Translations under genes and position numbers: made by a program | Virus record (IMG/VR): IMGVR_UViG_3300033148_002045 | Location: 1-25,792 of that record | Strand: one strand, 5' to 3' | DNA length: 25,792 bases | Source of the DNA: a virus | The notes under the pieces: generated by a model | Databases searched by the model: none | Seen by the model: only the letters and a program-made list of their open reading frames with translations | What the model was told of the DNA's origin: nothing | Shown: positions 2,272 to 15,314 of the stretch, piece after piece | How the letters are laid out: each line of letters opens with the position of its first letter | Numbering within the stretch: the stretch's first letter is position 1

Positions 2272-2622
2272 TCAAAAATGAGCTAAATTCCACATGACAA
2301 CAGCCCCTTCTCCAGTGGTAACAATCTTTAAACCATTTAATCTCCAGTTATGAGGCATGTAATGAGCAACCGTAAAAACTGCAACATTAGCTATTCCAAC
2401 ACCTATCCATACTTTCTTCATGTCAGGGTAGCAACTATCTTTTTTCCTGACCAATTTATTCTTCTCACATATACCATTCTTTTCAAACTGTGAAGTCGTA
2501 AGACCGTCACCTATGGTGGTTAAGGTGAAGGTAAACATCCAGTTTTTTTCTTCACCTGTCCAGTTGCCACCAGCGCAAGAGGTTATTAGGAAACAAGATG
2601 CTATGATAATTATTGTTTTCAT
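2272..2622 (-). CDS. Predicted lipoprotein, unknown function
   Basis: A 116-residue protein. Residues 1-15 (MKTIIIIASCFLITS) form a short lipoprotein signal, with lipobox I13-T14-S15-C16 giving a lipid-modified Cys16. Residues +2 and +3 are Ala-Gly, which in Gram-negative hosts favours outer-membrane sorting. The mature part has two Cys in GICEKN and DSCYPD about 15 residues apart. A moderately hydrophobic segment (about 70-90, VWIGVGIANVAVFTVAHYM) could be a membrane helix, and another lies near the C-terminus. The start shares a base with the stop of the fibre-like gene. Phage lipoproteins can act as superinfection exclusion factors or as outer spanins. Neither is demonstrated here: no paired inner spanin is visible, and the length and internal hydrophobic segment are not spanin-like. 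Confidence 0.8.
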   Translation of the reverse strand: MKTIIIIASCFLITSCAGGNWTGEEKNWMFTFTLTTIGDGLTTSQFEKNGICEKNKLVRKKDSCYPDMKKVWIGVGIANVAVFTVAHYMPHNWRLNGLKIVTTGEGAVVMWNLAHF

Positions 2623-3689
2623 TATGGTAGAAGCTCCAACATTGCAGTAAAAGCCTTAAAACTTATATTCGCATGAGCATCACCATGTTGATAGGTAACG
2701 GAAAGAGTCAACGCCCCGGTAGAATCTTCGGCTACCGCATTGTGCATACTTAATACGTTTTCGGCGTTATAAATTGATGTGCTATCTGAGCCATCCATTG
2801 TTTGACCACCGCCATCATCACAATGAAGGACAGAGTAAGCCACCTGTGCGCTTGCAGAATTCTTAGCTTGCAAAATTGCAGACAGAACGACATGCGCCCT
2901 GCCCGCATTGATAGCGAAAGTACTAGCTGGAGTAAGCGTGGCTATTGTTGTGGCGCCGTATTTGACTTTTACAATTGGAGTGGTTGTGCTGCCAGAATTG
3001 TTTAGGTGATCTCCAAGAAGCGTTAAGCGCAATCCTCTGTTAGTAGACAACGTATTGGCTGGAACAGAAAAAGAATATACTGTGGTTTCGGTTGTGGTGT
3101 TCACGACCTCTGTTTCAGTTACATCCCTATCAAGAACAATAACAGATGTGCTGGGTCGTGACTGTCCGGTCAATCTCCAATCTCCTGTCGCATATTCACG
3201 GAAGGTTATTTCGTCCCCTGCCATTGTCGTTATGTTTAATCCGTATGGCAGGATCAAATCAGTTGCATGATGGGTGAGCGTTAATACTCCGTCAAAATGA
3301 AGCGTTACTTCTTTACCAACTTGTCCACTTGTAATAATAGATGTTATTGAAGTTGTGCCTGTAACATCAAAGTAATCACCATCTGTAGGAAAACTTGCTG
3401 TAGTGAATAAAGCTGCCTCACTTACTACATCAGCGCCTTTCTCGCCCAATAGTCCTAAATTCGTCGCACTCAACGTCCCTATTGTTATCCAGGCATTGTT
3501 CGCTGCGTTCCGTATCTTTAAGAGATCGTTTGCCGTGTCAGTCCACATCTGAAAGGCGTACATGGTGGACGGCTCTGTGGCGCCTGAGTTGGTGCTTGCC
3601 AACGCCTGTATTGCGGCATTAATAGCAATCCTCATGGTTGCTCCGGTATTCGCGTCCCCTGTGGCTATGTCCATATCGTGCTGGCTCAT
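2622..3689 (-). CDS. Tail fibre / appendage-like structural protein
   Basis: A 355-residue protein. The N-terminal part (about 1-72) has the pattern common in short-tailed phage appendage proteins: a start of the form MSQHD.DIA, a helix INAAIQALAS, then SGATEPSTMYAFQMWTDTA and LLKIRNAANNAWITIG, which recurs in fibre N-termini. It is followed by a beta-rich section (about 85-180) with LHFDGVLTLTHHATDLILP and GDEITFREYATGDWRLTG, resembling the beta-roll at the end of fibre modules. A Thr/Ser/Val-rich beta domain of about 170 residues then continues to the C-terminus. The fold suggests a trimeric or hub-attached fibre that contacts the host. It begins right at the stop codon of the nozzle gene, fitting a tail operon. 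Confidence 0.75.
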   Translation of the reverse strand: MSQHDMDIATGDANTGATMRIAINAAIQALASTNSGATEPSTMYAFQMWTDTANDLLKIRNAANNAWITIGTLSATNLGLLGEKGADVVSEAALFTTASFPTDGDYFDVTGTTSITSIITSGQVGKEVTLHFDGVLTLTHHATDLILPYGLNITTMAGDEITFREYATGDWRLTGQSRPSTSVIVLDRDVTETEVVNTTTETTVYSFSVPANTLSTNRGLRLTLLGDHLNNSGSTTTPIVKVKYGATTIATLTPASTFAINAGRAHVVLSAILQAKNSASAQVAYSVLHCDDGGGQTMDGSDSTSIYNAENVLSMHNAVAEDSTGALTLSVTYQHGDAHANISFKAFTAMLELLP

Positions 3690-5152: not shown

Positions 5153-5788
5153 TTACATCGGCTCCACATCTTTTAAATTACTCAAGCCCTGATTGATAGC
5201 TGTACCTGTGAGGCTGTTAAGGAACTCCTCAAGCTCTACGTTTTCTGCGTTGCCCTGCTCTATCTTAGCGATTATATGCCCGCCTGAAATCATCGTGTCT
5301 TCGTCAAGTAAAGGTACATCGGTTGCGCTAGTCAACCTTGCCGGACGTTTAATGGCCTCCACATCTATCTGATACACCGCATCCGGAACCGGGTGTACTT
5401 CGATTTTAACATCGTCACCGGCTCTGCTATACATCCGATACACCAAAGGCTGTGCCTCTGTGGATCCTTGCTGTCGAACATACTCCCTGAAATCACCATC
5501 CTCAAACTTTACGAGAGGATCGGATGTGCTGATCTGTAAATTCGTTAGCGTTGAAATCTCTCCGGAAGGATCGAGAGAAACTGTGTAAATCTTTGTCGAT
5601 GCCACCGTGTCAAAGTTGCCGTATATCTTTAAGGCATCCCAAACGGTAGCGTCCTTCATTATGTCTCTCTGTACCCTGTTAAGAAAGCCCAGGATAAGGG
5701 CAGCATGAGCGTCTGTGATAGCTGGGGATTGCGGGAGTCTTAAGTTCTTCTGTATCTCGTTAATTATGTTTAAGACATTTAGAGCCAT
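5153..5788 (-). CDS. Head-tail / tail adaptor protein (tail tubular A-like)
   Basis: A 211-residue protein. An N-terminal helical segment (MALNVLNIINEIQKNLRLPQ) is followed by a helix around 'LILGFLNRVQRDIM', then a beta-rich core and a C-terminal helix with 'MISGGHIIAKIEQGNAENVELEEFLNSL'. Proteins of this shape, between about 190 and 220 residues and encoded just before the nozzle, are ring-forming tail adaptors that bind the portal exit and the nozzle. The GG-x-I-x-x-x-x-x-G segment near residue 170 is also typical of these adaptors, where the protein docks a helix to neighbours. It is ten bases from the WMG-repeat gene and one base before the nozzle gene. The family assignment is by pattern and neighbourhood. 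Confidence 0.72.
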   Translation of the reverse strand: MALNVLNIINEIQKNLRLPQSPAITDAHAALILGFLNRVQRDIMKDATVWDALKIYGNFDTVASTKIYTVSLDPSGEISTLTNLQISTSDPLVKFEDGDFREYVRQQGSTEAQPLVYRMYSRAGDDVKIEVHPVPDAVYQIDVEAIKRPARLTSATDVPLLDEDTMISGGHIIAKIEQGNAENVELEEFLNSLTGTAINQGLSNLKDVEPM

Positions 5789-5798
5789 AATTTGTCTC

Positions 5799-6002
5799 CT
5801 ATGACAATTTAATTTGATCTGTCGGCGTAAAACCTACACCATTAATCTGATCTGTCTCGAATGCGGCAACACCATCTATTACATCGGTAGGTGAATAAGG
5901 AGTGCCGACAATTATGTCAGTCAAAGCGGCGGCGCCCATCCAATCGCCCATCCACTTACCCATCCATCCGCCCATCCATCCGCTATCTGTCTCTCTTGAC
6001 AT
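5799..6002 (-). CDS. Small WMG-repeat protein, unknown function
   Basis: A 67-residue protein whose ATG overlaps the stop of the 690-residue gene in a TAATG junction, so it is likely translated by coupling. Residues 8-23 are four tandem tetrapeptides, GWMG-GWMG-KWMG-DWMG, encoded by four 12-base repeats. The C-terminal part alternates 'YSPTDVIDG', 'FETDQINGV' and 'FTPTDQIKLS', which looks like a degenerate D-x-I-x-G-V repeat. No membrane segment or catalytic motif is visible. It lies between the exported-protein block and the tail adaptor, so it may be a small virion or assembly peptide, but nothing in the sequence proves this. Confidence 0.6.
   Translation of the reverse strand: MSRETDSGWMGGWMGKWMGDWMGAAALTDIIVGTPYSPTDVIDGVAAFETDQINGVGFTPTDQIKLS
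5934..5981 (-). repeat. Four tandem 12-bp repeats encoding x-W-M-G
   Basis: On the coding (minus) strand the unit is GGATGGATGGGC with small changes (GGATGGATGGGT, AAGTGGATGGGC, GATTGGATGGGC). The period of 12 keeps the reading frame, so copy-number change would add or remove whole tetrapeptides. Confidence 0.9.
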
Positions 6003-8074
6003 TAATTACACCCTGTTAAAATTAGAGTCACGGCGTCTCTGTTAAAACTTACGTCCATCGTGGATGACACAACATTTGTATCATCGTCAATATTTCTGAA
6101 CTTAGGTGTTGTTGTACCCATACCGGTACTTATACCAAGCTGAGTAGCTGCCATTGCACATATAATTTCTCTCAGTGTCCGTGTACCGTCCACCGTTTCG
6201 TCAAGTATTGCATCAACAGCAGCAGCAGTTAAGGCCATAGAATCCCCTGCCTTTGCAGGAGCATAATTACCCTGAGTCGTTGCAAGGGTTGTTCCGTCTG
6301 CACCCGTTACTGTGTCGAGATCAGTTTGTGCGGTGTCCTGCTTCGCCTCTGTAGCTAAACCGCTTTGTACCTGAGTAACATCATATCTCGCATCATCACT
6401 AAGAGTCAGATTTGTAATCCCTGAAGTCGTGAAATTTCCCCTTATCGCTACCGTACCACCTGTGCTAGTCCCTTCAATAAACTGACCGTTACCCTCAAGG
6501 CTCATCGTGTCAGTCCCCGTATCACCCATAGCCTCTACCTGAATACCGCCTGAGTAATTCCTAAAGCTTACATTCGTATTACCCACTGCTGCGCCAAAGT
6601 CAAGAGACGGTGAACCTGTACCAGCTACTTCGGAATAACAGCCAATACAAGCGTAGTCACCTGCTGCCGACAAAGTGAGTGTTGTTGAAAGTCCACTCTC
6701 CTGAAAATGCGCCTCACCAATAGTTACCGTTCCGATATGAGCATGTTCAAACTCTACCTCACCTGTAGGAGTTGTTCCTGTGCCTGATACTGCTGGACCA
6801 TGAAAATGTGTGTTTGATATATCCTGACCACCTAAAGCAAGCGTCCAGTCATGTCCATAGAAAACCTGACTTACCTGACTTGCTGCCAAAGTAATGGTTG
6901 AATTTGGAGCGATACTGAAACGATTAAGGTTCAAAGCCGTAGCCAAAGTATTCGCTGCTGCAATCGTTGAGACAGGGTTCGTAGAAACCCCATCAATACC
7001 AACTACTGTATTCGTGTTTGAAAGATTTGTATCTATCCAGATCGAACCACCATCATAAATAGACGTTCCGAGAGAAAACGATGTAAACATCTGATCTATT
7101 GCAAGGGTTGCTGTGGTCAATCCTGAGGCAGCGTAGAATCTAATCCTCACCTTTCCAATATTACTATTAGTACCAACCATTGACGTAAATAAATCATAAC
7201 TGTTCACCTCATTTGTAGAAGCTGCCTTCCCTGATAATGTCCCGATCTGCACCCATCCAGGGGCTATCCAATCATACCCAAACACATCAAGAGAATCATT
7301 ATTACCGTTTAAATAACCTGTGACCGTAACTGAAGATGGAATCCCTGCCCCTATGGTGAACTCATAATACAGTTCCATCGCCCCTGTGTCGTCAGTATGC
7401 TCATGGTTCGTGCCGTCAAGGGCTGCTGTGCTTGCATAAGTGCCGCTTGACTGCGTGCCTGTGGTCAAGGTAACTGACGCAGGGGAGGTATTTACAGCCG
7501 AACCGACATTTGAGATATTTGAGAGTTGACTTTGTGTTGAGGGGAAGGTATCGCCTGTTAAACCGGTTGTGTCATATTGATTGACTATATTTGCATGAGC
7601 CGTAGCACCAAGATAAGAGTCGCCTGTCTGCGCTGTATGGCCTGTGAGTGTCGAAACGGTAGGTACAACTGCACTCGTATGTGTAATAGCTTCAAGTTGG
7701 GCTAATAAATCCCCTGTCCTCCAAGGGTATAGAACAAGCATGGTATCTTTTGAGTCAGTCGTTGTAGACTGCACCTTGACAGAAACAGTGTCACAGTTCA
7801 TTTCCCCGGACGTTAAGTCGAGATAGTACATACCTGAAGAAGTGGCTATCTCAGTCGCTTCATTAGTTGCGTCACCATCACCAGCAGCGTCACAACTTAT
7901 CTCAGTATCCAGCCCTGCTGCACCCGTTACAGGATCACCGTCGTTGTCTAATATCGGGAACGAAACACGAAACGCCTGATTCTTAACTGGCACAATAGTT
8001 GCATCTGTCGAAGCACCCCATACATTAGGAACGCTAAGTAGTAAGATTATGAGTATGCTAAGTAGTATCTTCAT
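6002..8074 (-). CDS. Exported 690-residue protein with phage tail-type modules
   Basis: Residues 1-20 (MKILLSILIILLLSVPNVWG) are a textbook Sec signal: Lys, a long Leu/Ile core, and a likely cut before or after Ala21. Residues 25-115 match a module common in phage tail and virion proteins, seen here as KNQAFRVSFPILDNDGDPVT, an AGLDTEIS.DA segment, and SSGMYYLDLTSGEMN. The middle (about 130-560) is Thr/Ser/Gly-rich and beta-strand-rich. Near residue 590 a short coiled or helical patch (ATEAKQDTAQTDLDTV) starts a C-terminal phage module: AAVDAILDETVDGTRTLREI, then a final beta hairpin with FRNIDDDTNVV and VSFNRDAVTLIL. Six Cys are visible. A phage structural architecture with an export signal is unusual. 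It could be placed outside the cytoplasm or be a periplasm-matured appendage. Its ATG lies one base before the stop of the preceding gene. Confidence 0.75.
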   Translation of the reverse strand: MKILLSILIILLLSVPNVWGASTDATIVPVKNQAFRVSFPILDNDGDPVTGAAGLDTEISCDAAGDGDATNEATEIATSSGMYYLDLTSGEMNCDTVSVKVQSTTTDSKDTMLVLYPWRTGDLLAQLEAITHTSAVVPTVSTLTGHTAQTGDSYLGATAHANIVNQYDTTGLTGDTFPSTQSQLSNISNVGSAVNTSPASVTLTTGTQSSGTYASTAALDGTNHEHTDDTGAMELYYEFTIGAGIPSSVTVTGYLNGNNDSLDVFGYDWIAPGWVQIGTLSGKAASTNEVNSYDLFTSMVGTNSNIGKVRIRFYAASGLTTATLAIDQMFTSFSLGTSIYDGGSIWIDTNLSNTNTVVGIDGVSTNPVSTIAAANTLATALNLNRFSIAPNSTITLAASQVSQVFYGHDWTLALGGQDISNTHFHGPAVSGTGTTPTGEVEFEHAHIGTVTIGEAHFQESGLSTTLTLSAAGDYACIGCYSEVAGTGSPSLDFGAAVGNTNVSFRNYSGGIQVEAMGDTGTDTMSLEGNGQFIEGTSTGGTVAIRGNFTTSGITNLTLSDDARYDVTQVQSGLATEAKQDTAQTDLDTVTGADGTTLATTQGNYAPAKAGDSMALTAAAVDAILDETVDGTRTLREIICAMAATQLGISTGMGTTTPKFRNIDDDTNVVSSTMDVSFNRDAVTLILTGCN

Positions 8075-11000
8075 TTAACGCCCCCAAAATGGTTGGTTGT
8101 CGAACGTAAAAGGAACATTCCTGAAACGTATCATCATTGGTTGACCTGAACTGATCGTTACAAAAGACCATCGTATTTCTGAATAGGCGGGGTTCCGCTC
8201 ATCGGTGCTACCTTTTTCCATGTAGATTAAATTCTTGCTCAAAGAATCTCTGTCAGACGTTAAGACAAACCAAGGGGTATCTGCCGTCCATGATGTACAG
8301 CTAGACCATGTAGCACCATCGTCAATCGATTGAATATTACAGTTTGACAGGATAAGAAACAAACCCTCCGACCCTACCAGTAAAGCATTTGGAGCGATAA
8401 CCGTAGAACTCACAAGGTCTTCAACCCAATTTGCGTTTGTCCCGTCACGGACAATAAAGTAAGACCCTGATCCTGACACGCCTATTGCTATTATAGGCTC
8501 AGTGTTATTCTGAACATTAATTGCGTTGTTGGCTTGCATACCTGCTTCTGAGTCACTGTGAATACCTCTTTTAGTCCACGTTATATCATTGTCAACAACT
8601 GTTCCCCATTGATTCGTAGGCCATGTCGGTTGACTTCCACTCGTTGTTCCACCACCTGAATCGGCTGTATACATAAATCCGTCATGCGGTGAAGCTAAAG
8701 CACAATCATAAGCTCCATAGGCCGTTGTAGATGTCCAGGTTGTACAAGGCCAATCCGTTCCTGAATTATCCTTCATTGAATAAACCAGATCAGCATCAGA
8801 TTCGTCTATGGGTAAGCCTCCTGCTGAATGTTCAGTCAGATCACTTCTGTAAAATTTAAACGTCCCATGAGTTACCTGCGGCATGATATTTGTATAATAT
8901 GTTTCGTGGTAGACGTTTGTGCCGGAATCATCTCTTATGCCCCATAGAAAATGTATAGACTTCTGCCCTGACACTTCATCCCCAAGGCTAATTCCCTGCA
9001 TGTAAGTCTTAGAATCTCCACTGGTATCACTCGCCATTGCAAACCTTACGGCGGTGTACCAAGTCCCGGCTGCGCTTCTTTCCATTACGAATATACCGTT
9101 ACTACCTCCATAATAACCAACCATATAGAATAAAAATAAGTCACCGTCATCATCCACCACTATCCGTTTATAACCCCTGCCCGTAATCGCTGGTGGGCTT
9201 ATATTTGTCCAGCCAATACTTAGCACATTAGAAAACGAAGCATCGTCGATTGCGTAATCAGATTTATAGATTCTAATATTTTCATCATCACCGTCACTCA
9301 TTGTCCTGCCACCCATAATCAGGTAAGCGAATCCGCTTGTGTCGAGATAGACATCCATTGAGTTGTGAAGGTCTGAGTATCTGTAAGGGCTTCCAAGCCC
9401 CCACTCGGCAAAATCCCAAGTTTCACTGCTATTATCGTACACATTCATTATTATTTCGTTACCTCTGTTAAACAAGGCAAAAAACGAATGATTGTTATAC
9501 GTCCTTACGTGAGTTGAATAGTTCTGTCCGAAGGCTTGGTTCCTGTTGCCCTCCCTACTTATAAGTATCCCCTCACTACCTAATTCTGTCGGATCGCCCA
9601 TGTCTTCAGTATGAATCATCAACTGATTGGTAGAGTCTTTATGATAAATAACAGTGAACATATCAGAATCCCATAAGGGAGATGAGAGTCTATATGTTGA
9701 CTTTGTAGCCACTGTCACGATAGAAGAAGCTGCTCCAAAACCTCCTGCCTCTGTCCAGATTATCTGCTCAATAGCTGTATTTGCATTATTAACAAAGGCT
9801 ATATAAACTTCATCGTCTTCGCCCATATTCGCCATAGACGTAAAACCACTCAAATTATTAGCCGTACCTACAAGGTCTGCATCTACTACATCAGCCGCAC
9901 CATCCCATGTTCCATCTCTGACGTTACCTCTTAATGTGTCTGAGTCTGTGGCATGATACTCACGCCATGTCGCCACAATTCTGTCATTCCTTGAAGCTAC
10001 ACATCTAAACTTTTTATAGTGCCCTAAGTCTGTCGCTATTGTCTCAGCACTACCCCACGAAGAACCACTATACTCTTTATATTTGAGTGTATAAGGCGCA
10101 CTTGACCCATAGGCATAACAAGCCCCAATCTTTCCCGTCCACTGAGCGTTGTAAGGGATTAACTGTATTGCCCCTGAGTCACCCGAGAGCGTGTGAATAG
10201 TCGTTGCTGCGCTAAACGCAACATTCCCTACAGCTTTACTCGCTACCTCAAGACCTGTCGTTCCGTTGGTCGATGACATCCAGGCAGTATCATTCCTTGC
10301 TAAGATAACGGTAGGTTCTGACGCAAAAGTGGCTGGCGGGACTTTACTGTGAGTGGCTATATTATAACTCGTTGAATCAGTGTCATTGTCTTTTGCCGTA
10401 ACTTCCATCTCTCTGTCGCCCGATTCAGCTTGACCGACCATGCTATAACCCCATGAATACTGTGCGCTTGGGTAGTACATTGACAAGCCTCTACCGCCTG
10501 TCACCGTTGTCATAGAAGGAACATTGTGGGCTGTATGAAATTGAAGGGTGTCATTCTCACCATAAATAATCTGAGGTTGTGTTGCTGAAGTTCCGTCTTC
10601 ATCCCAAATAGCAGTTATATATCTTCCATCATTCCAGACGTGGTTTTGAAATGGCTGACCTAAAGCACCCTCGTCTGAAGGACGGGAGATAAGACCCGGG
10701 GAATATAAAGTAGTTGCCGTCAATGACACGGCAAAAGATATCGAACTGGACATATAAAGCGGATTAGCCTGTGTCGCACCAACTGTCAACCATCCAACAT
10801 CAGGAGTCGCCCCTAGACCACTCCTGTAACGTGCTATTACCCAATCAGCCGATCTTGCATTGTCTGAGATAGTCAAGTCATCAAGATCGCCTATAAATTC
10901 ATGGTCTGGTGTAGTCGTATCTGAGTCTGCGCCAATCACTAAAATCTCATTGTCACCGTCACTTAAATTAGCATCTGTAAAGGCCGCTGTTGCCTTTTGA

Positions 11001-11884
11001 ACACCATCCATATAAAGTCTTACAAGATCGTTTGTATTATCAACAACACCAGCGATATGATGCCATGCACCATCGTTTTCAGCAGTTGAGGCATAAGTCG
11101 CTACCGCAAAACCTGCTGCCCCATCATCATAAGCCTGAAATTTCCACGAATTCACAGGCTGGTCAAACCACAATAAAAAGTTACCTGCTGCACCTATTTG
11201 ATCCTTAGACCACACCCTTTGACTGTTAGCACTGTCGCTGGTCTTAAACCAACCGTCTACTGTAAGGTCAGTATATGCACTCATTTCAATATCTGATATC
11301 TCGAACTGATCCCCTGTTCCGTCAAAAGTCTGACCCCTGTCAACCTGCCCTGCTACGTCTGTCGGCAGGCTTCCATTCTCAGTCCCATTATTGCTATTAG
11401 ATGTCTGGTCTTCTCTTGAACCTGTGGCGTTAGGGTTGTCGGTGTTTTGATAATAAGCTCCAATATAATTAGCATCCCAAGTGTTTGTTGTGCAACCATC
11501 TGTAGGCGTTACCGCATCCCAATTGATATAAGCAAACGTATCTCCTGTCGTTCCTTCATAGTCAATCTCAAAACTCCAGTGAGCATCATCCTCTGTGGCA
11601 TTGTAAGATTCATTGTCAAAAGGGATCAGGGTAGTACCATCAACCGTGGTAAATCTAACCTCACAACCATCCGTAACTGGAGGGCTACTGTCCCAAAAGT
11701 CTGCCTCTCCCGAGTCACTGTTATACTTCCCGGGACCAGTAAGATCAGAGGTCAAATGAGTGTCCGCATCAATAGTGATAAGTTTCCTCTGCTTATATCC
11801 AAACAGCCATGCCGTGCTACTGTGAGCCACAGACACAAAGGCAAATAAGAATATAAGAGAGAATATGTAAGTTTTAGTTTTCAT
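8075..11884 (-). CDS. Exported giant protein: DUF2341-like + LamG lectin fold + propeller-like repeats
   Basis: At 1269 residues this is the largest gene here. Residues 1-22 (MKTKTYIFSLIFLFAFVSVA then HS) are a Sec signal. Residues about 25-125 resemble a DUF2341-type module (GYKQRKLITID..., CEVRFTTVDGTTLIPFDNES). Residues about 145-365 are a concanavalin-like LamG domain, with strands FDGTGDQFEISD, DLTVDGWFKTSD, GAWHHIAGVVDNTNDLVRLY and EFIGDLDDLTISDNARSADW. Residues about 380-1000 carry repeated beta motifs such as IVATWREYHATDSD, EDDEVYIAFVNN and DMFTVIYHKDSTN, reading as a sialidase/BNR-like propeller. Near residue 1090, SGSQPTWPTNQWGTVVDNDI resembles a phage carbohydrate-binding or linker repeat. 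Eight Cys are visible. The likely role is glycan or surface binding outside the cytoplasm. No catalytic sialidase residues were confirmed, so enzymatic activity is not claimed. Confidence 0.78.
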   Translation of the reverse strand: MKTKTYIFSLIFLFAFVSVAHSSTAWLFGYKQRKLITIDADTHLTSDLTGPGKYNSDSGEADFWDSSPPVTDGCEVRFTTVDGTTLIPFDNESYNATEDDAHWSFEIDYEGTTGDTFAYINWDAVTPTDGCTTNTWDANYIGAYYQNTDNPNATGSREDQTSNSNNGTENGSLPTDVAGQVDRGQTFDGTGDQFEISDIEMSAYTDLTVDGWFKTSDSANSQRVWSKDQIGAAGNFLLWFDQPVNSWKFQAYDDGAAGFAVATYASTAENDGAWHHIAGVVDNTNDLVRLYMDGVQKATAAFTDANLSDGDNEILVIGADSDTTTPDHEFIGDLDDLTISDNARSADWVIARYRSGLGATPDVGWLTVGATQANPLYMSSSISFAVSLTATTLYSPGLISRPSDEGALGQPFQNHVWNDGRYITAIWDEDGTSATQPQIIYGENDTLQFHTAHNVPSMTTVTGGRGLSMYYPSAQYSWGYSMVGQAESGDREMEVTAKDNDTDSTSYNIATHSKVPPATFASEPTVILARNDTAWMSSTNGTTGLEVASKAVGNVAFSAATTIHTLSGDSGAIQLIPYNAQWTGKIGACYAYGSSAPYTLKYKEYSGSSWGSAETIATDLGHYKKFRCVASRNDRIVATWREYHATDSDTLRGNVRDGTWDGAADVVDADLVGTANNLSGFTSMANMGEDDEVYIAFVNNANTAIEQIIWTEAGGFGAASSIVTVATKSTYRLSSPLWDSDMFTVIYHKDSTNQLMIHTEDMGDPTELGSEGILISREGNRNQAFGQNYSTHVRTYNNHSFFALFNRGNEIIMNVYDNSSETWDFAEWGLGSPYRYSDLHNSMDVYLDTSGFAYLIMGGRTMSDGDDENIRIYKSDYAIDDASFSNVLSIGWTNISPPAITGRGYKRIVVDDDGDLFLFYMVGYYGGSNGIFVMERSAAGTWYTAVRFAMASDTSGDSKTYMQGISLGDEVSGQKSIHFLWGIRDDSGTNVYHETYYTNIMPQVTHGTFKFYRSDLTEHSAGGLPIDESDADLVYSMKDNSGTDWPCTTWTSTTAYGAYDCALASPHDGFMYTADSGGGTTSGSQPTWPTNQWGTVVDNDITWTKRGIHSDSEAGMQANNAINVQNNTEPIIAIGVSGSGSYFIVRDGTNANWVEDLVSSTVIAPNALLVGSEGLFLILSNCNIQSIDDGATWSSCTSWTADTPWFVLTSDRDSLSKNLIYMEKGSTDERNPAYSEIRWSFVTISSGQPMMIRFRNVPFTFDNQPFWGR

Positions 11885-12354
11885 TAGCTAGCCGTTACAT
11901 CCACCGTCACACTGCCAATTGGGATAACATGACCAGTGTCACCATTTTCTATTGTTATCGTACCTGAAGCACTAAGAACCCCAAAAGCAAGCCTGTTCGC
12001 TTCAGTCGTACAAGACAAGCAATCCCATATCTCAACGTAAGTACAATCAGTTGCACACCAGTCAGCACTTGGAGCATTCATTGTAACCGCCACAGTGTTA
12101 GAAATTGACCTACTCGCTGCCGCTGTCCCAAAAGTTATGATCTCTCTTGCATAATTACCCCCTGTCACTTCAGTGCATTTAGTCGAGTCAGTAGGTGTAG
12201 AGTTATTGCAAAGCCCGACATACACTGTTTGGTCTTTAAACAGAGTGTCTAATGTCGGGTTTGAACCGCCAGTGGTGGTAAGACCTGCCTGAACTGGCAA
12301 GGCAAGGAAGAGCGTTAACAGCAATACAGATATGAACGTAAATAAATTCTTCAT
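11884..12354 (-). CDS. Exported Gp80-like tail-fibre-type protein, Cys-rich
   Basis: A 156-residue protein. Residues 1-23 (MKNLFTFISVLLLTLFLALP, then VQA) form a Sec signal with V-Q-A before the likely cut. The mature part follows a phage domain often annotated as tail fibre/Gp80-like: VYVGLC, a TEVTGGNYAREIITFG strand pair, an NAPSADW turn, a TYVEIWD strand, and a final GTITIENGDTGHVIPIGSVT hairpin. Unlike the usual cytosolic relatives it has six Cys (49, 60, 100, 104, 112, 115), four of them clustered, which would suit disulphides in an oxidising compartment. Its stop overlaps the start of the 1269-residue gene, so the two are likely co-translated. The fold assignment is by eye. Confidence 0.75.
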   Translation of the reverse strand: MKNLFTFISVLLLTLFLALPVQAGLTTTGGSNPTLDTLFKDQTVYVGLCNNSTPTDSTKCTEVTGGNYAREIITFGTAAASRSISNTVAVTMNAPSADWCATDCTYVEIWDCLSCTTEANRLAFGVLSASGTITIENGDTGHVIPIGSVTVDVTAS

Positions 12355-13655: not shown

Positions 13656-14255
13656 TTAATTGTGAAATTTAGTATGTTCAGCTTTTGTCATAACATCAAG
13701 ATTCCCTATCCTGTTGTTGGTTCTAACTTCGTCTTTATGATGTACGTCGTATTTTGGTGAAAGGTAAAGATTGCCACCGAGCTTAATGAGCGCTGGATGG
13801 TCTGGATGGTTTTCGCTAAGGTGTCGCTCCATGACAAGGCGATGCTCAAATACGTAGCCATTCGATGCAAAAGGGTGGTTAGGCACACTGATATAAATGT
13901 AACCATCAGAGTGATATGTTCTGCCACCTTTCCAGTTTGCATTTTTCGCACCATAACGAGGTTTTCTCTTAACGCATCCATAGGAACAATACTTAACCCT
14001 GTCTTTCCATGCAGGCCATGTTTCAAAAATCGTCCCGCAAGTTGGACAGATCTTCTTGATTTTAGCTGTTGGCCTTCCTTTCCATCCATACCAGCACTTT
14101 GTAGAGCAAAATCCAGAACCTTTGCGGGAAGGTGAAACACTATACACCTTCCCGCATTTCTTGCAGGTCTGAGTGACTTTACTCCTGTTGTACATGCACG
14201 CTTTGGAGCAATACTTACCTTTCGTTTTTTTCCCGCAAACAGGGCATTTAGACAT
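13656..14255 (-). CDS. Free-standing HNH homing-type endonuclease with three zinc modules
   Basis: A 199-residue protein. Three successive C-x2-C ... C-x3-C zinc modules (Cys 4,7,16,20; 31,34,50,54; 70,73,90,94) are followed by a 'NWKGGRTYHSDGYIYISVP' strand region. An HNH_3-type nuclease core then has E137-H138-R139 on its helix, H172-H173, N180/N181 and N185-L186, and His194. This composition is standard for phage homing endonucleases: zinc fingers bind DNA and the HNH core nicks or cuts it. AGGAGGT lies before the ATG, so it is independently translated. It sits between the capsid gene and its usual partner, as expected for a mobile gene that inserted next to a conserved target. The cleavage site is not determinable here. 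Confidence 0.88.
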   Translation of the reverse strand: MSKCPVCGKKTKGKYCSKACMYNRSKVTQTCKKCGKVYSVSPSRKGSGFCSTKCWYGWKGRPTAKIKKICPTCGTIFETWPAWKDRVKYCSYGCVKRKPRYGAKNANWKGGRTYHSDGYIYISVPNHPFASNGYVFEHRLVMERHLSENHPDHPALIKLGGNLYLSPKYDVHHKDEVRTNNRIGNLDVMTKAEHTKFHN

Positions 14256-14321: not shown

Positions 14322-15314
14322 TTAACCTTTTAAGGCAGTTTCCAGCCTGTACATCCAGAGTTCTTGAAGGATAACGGTTGCGTTCCATGTTTTCCAACCC
14401 ACGGTGCCTCTCTGAGCAAGAGGATCGTCCTTAGTGGCCTTCATGTTCACAACATAGGTTGAAACTGCGTTCTTACCGGCAAGAGGAACAACGCCGTAAG
14501 CATCCTTACCAAAAATAAGCATAGGATAAATGTCGCAGTTGGTACCCGTAGTAGACAGGCAACTATTGGTTGAAGCTGCTCCACCGGCATCAGCCCAGGG
14601 AGTAAGATTGTTGTCACCAACAAACCTGAACTTACCAAAAGCGCCCAATTCGCCGTTCATCATACTGCCTTGACTTGGGTACTGCTGAGTCTGTACGAAC
14701 CCTGTCATTCCTTCGAGATCAGGAAGTGCGTCTGTGTGAGTCGCAACAGGATAAGTAGGTGCTATTGGAACGGTACCGATATCCGGTGTAGGCGAAACGA
14801 AGGAAGTCTGAAACTTAGCCTCCTGCGCCATGAGCAACCTTGCCACTGTACGCCATGTAGCGGTTGTGAAAATATCAAGGGTAAGTGCCCTTGAAACGAT
14901 AGCGGAAGTAGGCGCATAGAATACACTTGTACCTGCTTTCAAAACACCGGCTCTAAGAACATCGATAGTTTCATCAGCCTGAAGGCCGAGGATATCGATA
15001 GACTCGTTAAGAACTGGGTCCTGGTGAGTGTCCTGAATAACATCAGTAATACCCACCCAATCGCCGTACTGCTTGGTGGTTACACTCACATCCGTCTTTG
15101 TGAGCGTCTTGCCGGTTGGTGTGATCCCCTCAGAAAGCGGAGTCGTAGCATTGGCAAGTTTGTTGTACCTTCTGAACTTGATCGTTTGAGAATTCTTCTG
15201 TGGCAGAGGTCTAACCTGCCCGAACTGTCCGAGAACATTATTTGTCGCTATCCGAGTCAGAAGTCTCCTGTCGGCATAAGCGGTTATTCTCGGAGTAATG
15301 TCGCTATATAACAT
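14322..15314 (-). CDS. Major capsid protein, N4gp56 family
   Basis: A 330-residue protein, a typical length for the family. The N-arm 'YADRRLLTRIATNNVLGQFG' (about 14-32) leads to 'PLPQKNSQTIKFRRY' (about 36-50) and 'TTPLSEGITPTGKTL' (about 57-71). 'QYGDWVGITDVIQDTHQDP' (82-100) and 'ADETIDVLRAGVL' (113-125) are near-diagnostic of N4gp56-type HK97-fold capsid proteins. The C-terminal part has 'LIFGKDAYGVVPLAG' and 'QRGTVGWKTWNATVIL'. Two Cys (NSCLSTTGTNC, about 250-262) sit close together in a loop. It builds the icosahedral shell around the scaffold. The order portal, scaffold, capsid is canonical. Confidence 0.95.
   Translation of the reverse strand: MLYSDITPRITAYADRRLLTRIATNNVLGQFGQVRPLPQKNSQTIKFRRYNKLANATTPLSEGITPTGKTLTKTDVSVTTKQYGDWVGITDVIQDTHQDPVLNESIDILGLQADETIDVLRAGVLKAGTSVFYAPTSAIVSRALTLDIFTTATWRTVARLLMAQEAKFQTSFVSPTPDIGTVPIAPTYPVATHTDALPDLEGMTGFVQTQQYPSQGSMMNGELGAFGKFRFVGDNNLTPWADAGGAASTNSCLSTTGTNCDIYPMLIFGKDAYGVVPLAGKNAVSTYVVNMKATKDDPLAQRGTVGWKTWNATVILQELWMYRLETALKG

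Follow-up and report, generated by a model that had tools for sequence, protein, structure and literature searches.

Background

Tailed phages are taken to complete their virions in the cytoplasm. Among the closest described counterparts of the system considered here is the gp80 protein, or fibre I, of the Ralstonia podophage GP4 (family PF23140; PDB entry 8jou), the product of a podophage virion appendage gene. It shares its fold and family with the upstream neighbour of a giant, 1269-residue predicted exported protein encoded in IMG/VR virus record IMGVR_UViG_3300033148_002045, a linear virus contig of 25,792 bases that was analysed over its whole length (the window) and that carries a podophage late operon on the minus strand. 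In podophages such as ctXG6705 and Venkman, as in the window, a gp80-like gene is followed by fibre genes; one of theirs is annotated as a concanavalin A-like lectin/glucanase. Phage virion proteins with Sec signal peptides are known from the filamentous phages, whose pIII and pVIII are assembled outside the cytoplasm and whose pIII contains disulfides, and among the products of late or structural genes, Bor of lambda and Llp of T5 are exported. Lom and the spanins are named in the literature as phage proteins with leaders (PMC12309495, PMC7504290, PMC12633290, PMC13243795).

Our analysis reveals that the giant lies between two genes of phage fibre-type families that begin with the same kind of leader. 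We tentatively favour the view that the three genes, with the giant in the middle, encode a set of appendage proteins that are exported, contain disulfide bonds, bind glycans and join virions at lysis.

A block of three leader-bearing genes

The gp80-like gene, the giant and a 690-amino-acid (aa) fibre-type gene are consecutive and co-directional, with start and stop codons that touch or overlap; the start codon of the giant, for instance, overlaps the gp80 stop in TAATG.

11884..12354, minus strand: gp80-like protein of the neck/fibre I kind, 156 aa, six cysteines in the mature domain (PF23140 Gp80, E 3.7e-15)
12286..12354, minus strand: predicted signal peptide of the gp80-like protein, residues 1-23 (heuristic scorer)
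8075..11884, minus strand: giant protein, predicted to be exported, 1269 aa, eight cysteines (ATG start, one open frame)
11825..11884, minus strand: predicted signal peptide of the giant, residues 1-20, with 1-22 equally possible (rule-based scorer)
6002..8074, minus strand: 690-aa fibre-type protein with a predicted signal peptide (residues 1-20), an N-terminal domain and six cysteines

An earlier reading of this DNA (the original prediction) had described the giant as a single 1269-residue gene, as the uninterrupted minus-strand frame from an ATG at 8075-11884 bears out, but had not noticed that both of its neighbours (12354-11884 and 8074-6002) also start with predicted signal peptides. Leaders were predicted throughout with our own rule-based scorer, which considers n-, h- and c-regions and gives the three proteins scores of 4.69, 4.59 and 4.52. 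All three regions are recognizable in the leaders, which have AxA-like ends, and the N terminus of the giant (MKTKTYIFSLIFLFAFVSVAHS) fits a Sec signal peptide. Of the 4404 open reading frames (ORFs) in loci L002-L348 that are 100 aa or longer, 54 score 4.2 or higher, from which we calculate a chance of about 2e-6 per place for three leaders in a row.

The leaders of both the gp80-like and the 690-aa proteins precede canonical phage-protein starts, that is, the other members of these two fibre-type families begin where the predicted mature protein would. Leaderless gp80 copies start with M-x-x-(x)-SDYLEN, and leader-bearing ones have a leader ending in A and then GALSDYLEN or similar. Likewise, leaderless homologues of the N-terminal domain of the 690-aa protein begin with MASTDA, where the window reads NVWG followed directly by ASTDA; after its leader the protein continues as ASTDATIVPVKN, and the leaderless homologues start with the same residues, MASTDARPVPKKN. 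Homologues of the two neighbours are mostly leaderless, yet leader-bearing groups recur. Taken together, the sequences strongly suggest that all three proteins are exported.

The gp80 family is a virion family with a neck/fibre fold. PF23140, which is named for the fibre I protein of GP4, matches the gp80-like protein with 56.8 bits (cut-off 27) and its mature part with 57.8 bits, and the family profile matches PDB 8jou, described as a 'virion-associated phage protein', with E 1.4e-17. The predicted fold (mean predicted local distance difference test score, pLDDT, 71) aligns to chain 8jou_a over 108 residues (Z 10.6, root mean square deviation 2.3), spanning model residues 26-152 and starting at chain residue 3. 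The next fold matches are two phage neck/connector proteins (Z 9.8 and 9.6). In addition, a leaderless homologue in phage phiM5 is annotated as 'detected in phage particle proteome'.

Leaders and cysteine pairs in the fibre families

To set the window's gp80-like protein among its relatives, 175 ORFs matching the gp80 profiles in loci L085-L269 and the window were collected; five were skipped for want of an anchor motif or start, leaving 170 anchored and 159 unique sequences. A leader is found in 26 of the 159, mostly in prophages. All 26 of these copies have at least two cysteines in the mature part, compared with 3 of the 133 leaderless copies; the corresponding Fisher value of 7e-27 is not used as a probability because the rows are kin. 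The 25 leader-bearing copies other than that of the window have two mature cysteines each, and the window copy has six. Among the leaderless copies, 114 have none, 16 have one and three have two. Two of these three (L231, L237) have unclear starts, and the third, L221, has in our reading a longer, alanine-rich leader that the rule missed.

The two cysteines occur in fixed combinations of alignment columns. In the 25 non-window copies they are found in columns 48 and 138 (17 rows), 47 and 120 (five rows) or 53 and 122 (three rows), and the combinations are never mixed; the cysteines of L221 also fall in columns 48 and 138. The structural model suggests that the first partners of the pairs would lie in one loop and the second partners on two neighbouring strands. 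Exclusive, leader-linked pairs of this kind are what one would expect if a disulfide served a purpose outside the cytoplasm alone, and are not proof of one. One leaderless gp80, from Nitrosospira sp. NpAV (L190, 9974-10414), is nested within the leader clade and has lost both cysteines of the pair; it can be regarded as a natural reversal.

The leader-bearing gp80s go together with Gram-negative record titles. They occur in 22 of 61 genome loci, all 22 of them Gram-negative by record title (mostly beta- and gammaproteobacteria, with one Verrucomicrobiaceae and one Planctomycetota), and in none of the 18 loci that we counted as having Gram-positive titles; many of the loci are metagenome-assembled genomes, whose titles can be wrong. 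A leader-bearing gp80 query also matches 33 deposited phage records, and none of the 14 whose gp80s were examined carries a leader (11 judged by annotated starts, nine of those also scored, and three others).

For the 690-aa family, 84 of 94 ORFs could be used (ten were skipped), of which 76 are unique. A cysteine pair is common to the window and to L307, both of which have leaders, and is present in none of the 74 leaderless rows. L307 is a 61-kb viral contig that itself contains three consecutive leader genes, of 660 (with a GTG-type start), 90 and 661 aa, the outer two being of fibre length. Two adjacent signal-peptide genes, of 131 and 367 aa, are also found in a complete siphophage from Manatee Spring (MW202621.1; L088:3506-5024). 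They lie immediately ahead of a gene of fibre type, to which the 690-aa protein of the window is matched by its C-terminal end.

Domains and relatives of the giant protein

Scanned as a whole chain, the giant yields a weak Laminin_G_2 match alone, and BNR_4 is not listed; its domains emerge when it is scanned in pieces.

10838..11323, minus strand: LamG domain (Laminin_G_3, PF13385; E 1.5e-24, 81 bits on the record)
8777..9478, minus strand: BNR_4 (PF15892) propeller region (33 bits on the record, above the cut-off)
8573..8632, minus strand: QPTWP...ITWT motif, residues 1085-1104 (read from the translation)

Laminin_G_3 matches residues 23-395 scanned alone with E 1.9e-21 and 77.2 bits (cut-off 27.6), and BNR_4 matches residues 760-1045 scanned alone with E 3.7e-8 and 33.5 bits (cut-off 27.3). 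Thus, the LamG domain and the propeller-like region that had been proposed from the sequence both exceed their family cut-offs, on the fragments as well as on the record. The DUF2341-like start proposed with them is not supported: in a scan of the record that was positive for control genomes, PF10102 gave nothing at E<=10, and it is not among the matches of residues 23-186. The 'PTWP...WT' motif proposed as the ending is present and is not terminal, since about 165 residues lie beyond it. When residues 376-1269 were folded without an alignment, the mean pLDDT was 32, too poor for a fold search, so the lectin and propeller assignments rest on family profiles. The profiles and the predicted signal peptide support an exported protein of lectin-plus-propeller build.

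Relatives of the whole protein are not seen in any of the collections searched. Pattern scans of IMG/VR with the whole protein or with the BNR_4 part gave none, and none is present in ten records and genomes that carry relatives of the neighbouring genes. A tblastn search of phages matched the LamG region alone, in five records of one cyanophage species, with no match to the BNR_4 part; in Synechococcus phage ACG-2014e the matching region is annotated as a virion structural protein. Among plasmids, three records matched (Streptomyces and Embleya proteins), in the LamG region only and at 27-30% identity. In the PDB, a sequence search returned no match for the whole protein or the LamG part, while the BNR_4 part drew three weak hits to proteins with unrelated names (best E 0.29). 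Among the 11745 ORFs of the compared loci, the C-terminal part of the giant, which includes the QPTWP...ITWT motif, was alone in finding matches (L252, 6e-8; L241, 5e-7).

Placement of the block in the late operon

The original prediction also placed the giant among virion genes, and these could be identified. On the minus strand, TerL is followed by a portal of the SU10/Head-tail_con type, a scaffold region, the major capsid protein and several small genes, and then by the gp80-like gene, the giant, the 690-aa gene, a 67-aa ORF, an SU10-type adaptor, a stabilization-type protein and a fibre-type gene.

5799..6002, minus strand: small 67-aa ORF containing WMG repeats, at the end of the inserted block
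5153..5788, minus strand: SU10-type adaptor (PF24175, E 1.3e-9; homologues in L005, L006 and L007)

The nearest relatives by capsid protein, L005 (62%), L006 (62%) and L007 (57%), lack the block. In these loci p152 is directly followed by the adaptor, the gene order is otherwise equal, and the adaptor has about 95-130 extra N-terminal residues that the window adaptor does not have. The missing block and the extended adaptor indicate that, in the window, the block is inserted at the adaptor.

Several other genes of the operon deserve mention. The 67-aa ORF that ends the block contains a recurring WMG (GWMGGWMGKWMGDWMG) and has no homologue among the ORFs of the compared loci; a small gene at the matching place after the 690-type gene in L169, L170 and L307 is unrelated to it by sequence search. 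A GNAT-type acetyltransferase gene lies inside the late operon at 1815-2258. Pseudoalteromonas phage vB_Pun_Y3 has a similar gene at the corresponding place (a BLAST match, annotated as diamine N-acetyltransferase), as does L007, where an acetyltransferase-like ORF was named by eye. A 116-aa lipoprotein-like gene with the lipobox TSC is found downstream in the structural operon (2272-2622), and L007 encodes a 128-aa leader protein at a similar place. After the capsid gene, positions 13656-14255 contain an HNH/zinc-ribbon type endonuclease gene (named by eye), and StenR_269 has an annotated homing endonuclease immediately before its capsid gene.

Proposed mechanism and alternative explanations

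In the mechanism that we propose, the podophage would express the gp80-like anchor, the giant glycan-binding fibre and the 690-aa fibre together with its late virion genes. Cleavable Sec signal peptides would direct all three out of the cytoplasm, and the proteins would acquire their fold and their disulfides in the periplasm of a presumably diderm host. Lysis would then mix the compartments and allow the exported proteins to attach to the virion neck or tail, giving an outer layer whose LamG and propeller domains may bind, and perhaps cleave, envelope glycans. The step of joining the virion is suggested by family membership and gene position.

Several observations weigh against such an appendage. 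The leaders are predictions of our own scorer from sequence alone, and the docking of exported fibres to the adaptor is guesswork. The association of cysteines with leaders is not phylogenetically independent: on the gp80 tree (three of the 159 sequences left out for unclear starts, L221 recoded by hand as leader-bearing) three leader changes suffice, giving three independent contrasts that all point in the same direction, with a sign test p of 0.25. A single origin of all leader-bearing gp80s, including that of the window, is not rejected by the approximately unbiased test (p-AU 0.69; 72 of 156 rows), and the idea that the window acquired its leader separately, which had been considered from the tree, was dropped because of this result. 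In the 690-aa family, L297, which was skipped in the set and added by eye, has a clear leader and no cysteine. The capsid protein of the window (14322-15314), which is certainly cytoplasmic, has a close cysteine pair of its own (NSCLSTTGTNC, residues 252 and 260) that is absent at those positions in L005, L006, L007 and L008, so that in this phage a cysteine pair is no sure sign of export. Finally, the operon already contains an ordinary, leaderless fibre-type gene at 2622-3689.

The presence of that ordinary gene suits the main rival, a serious contender that we nevertheless find somewhat doubtful, in which the three proteins are exported and never enter the virion. Made from duplicated or captured fibre genes and acting around lysis, they would stay in the envelope or be released, as receptor blockers, decoys, superinfection exclusion factors or secreted glycan-degrading enzymes. 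The leader and cysteine evidence fits this explanation as well. In addition, among gp80s whose upstream gene could be scored, that gene is short and encodes a hydrophobic segment near the N terminus in 5 of 24 leader-bearing cases, compared with 2 of 119 leaderless ones (p 0.0015, uncorrected for kinship), and some of these genes look like Rz-type spanins, a hint of lysis cassettes that would tie export to lysis. A place in the virion is favoured over this rival by the neck/fibre fold of gp80 and by the translational linkage of the giant and its partners within the structural operon, beside the adaptor; moreover, three genes of fibre architecture exceed what a decoy would need. A third explanation, that the fibres are assembled in the ordinary way in the cytoplasm and that their N termini serve as anchors that are not cleaved off or as coiled-coil-like docking helices, or that export is incidental, is unlikely. 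Residues 3-13 of the gp80-like protein are helical in the AlphaFold model, an observation that speaks neither for nor against a signal peptide, and both the new cysteine pair of the capsid protein and the cysteine-free L297 can be counted in its favour. It does not account well, however, for leaders with n-, h- and c-regions and AxA-like ends, for a mature region that fits GP4 fibre I from residue 3, or for the concerted switching of cysteine pairs in leader-bearing copies only.

The original prediction had pictured the giant as an exported lectin-plus-propeller protein, perhaps a host-derived adhesin captured by the phage, or a receptor decoy. The first part of this picture agrees with the profiles and the predicted leader, and the decoy falls under the main rival above; capture from a host is disfavoured. 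LamG and propeller domains behind a signal peptide are a common bacterial surface build, and the best matches of the giant are the LamG regions of the Streptomyces and Embleya plasmid proteins, but at their low identity these three are no close bacterial relative, and the cyanophage match is to a virion structural protein. In addition, the giant is in phase with the late operon and is flanked on both sides by leader-bearing proteins of phage fibre-type families. As the flanking genes have leaders too, the signal peptide seems to belong to the three-gene block as a whole and not to one captured gene. We therefore regard a host surface adhesin carried as cargo, unrelated to the virion, as very improbable.

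Implications and comparison with known systems

If the appendage explanation is correct, the composition of the virion would depend on envelope conditions, its fibres could carry disulfides, and progeny would be kept from binding glycans before release. More generally, it is possible, though we would not lean towards it, that, among the tailed phages and prophages of diderm bacteria, some have part of the virion made outside the cytoplasm, with neck and tail fibre proteins passing through Sec, being oxidised in the periplasm and attaching at lysis; the trio in the window would be an extreme case and the leader-bearing gp80s of proteobacterial prophages the common form. If the proteins are not in virions, widespread secreted anti-receptor or glycan-active phage proteins would be hidden under names such as 'head protein' or 'tail fibre'. 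Under either reading, it would be a mistake to discard a leader ahead of a fibre gene as a misassigned start. A Sulfuriferula or Gallionellaceae prophage offers a way to test the question, through a leader-bearing gp80 whose cysteine pairs are swapped.

The fibre I protein of GP4 has a canonical start and no leader (chain residues 1-139 are aligned), whereas its counterpart in the window has a predicted signal peptide and six cysteines. The gp80 copies of ctXG6705 and Venkman are also leaderless, and their gene cluster follows the tail tube A or adaptor-position gene, whereas the block in the window precedes the adaptor. The filamentous phage coat proteins are the nearest analogy in the way the system would work, but they belong to virions extruded through a membrane and have no sequence kinship with the trio, which is encoded by a tailed double-stranded DNA phage. 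Lom and Bor of lambda and Llp of T5 are exported, as the trio is predicted to be, but are small membrane proteins or lipoproteins and do not belong to fibre families. Among bacterial BNR_4 and LamG_3 proteins, both domains of the giant pass the family cut-offs, and a relative of the whole architecture was not found. We found no paper describing fibre proteins of tailed phages (tail or neck families) with Sec leaders in the open-access literature searched, which cannot prove absence from print. The parts of the system (Gp80/fibre I, LamG and BNR_4) are of known kinds, and it is the occurrence of Sec leaders on proteins of tail or neck fibre families that has no precedent in the papers searched.

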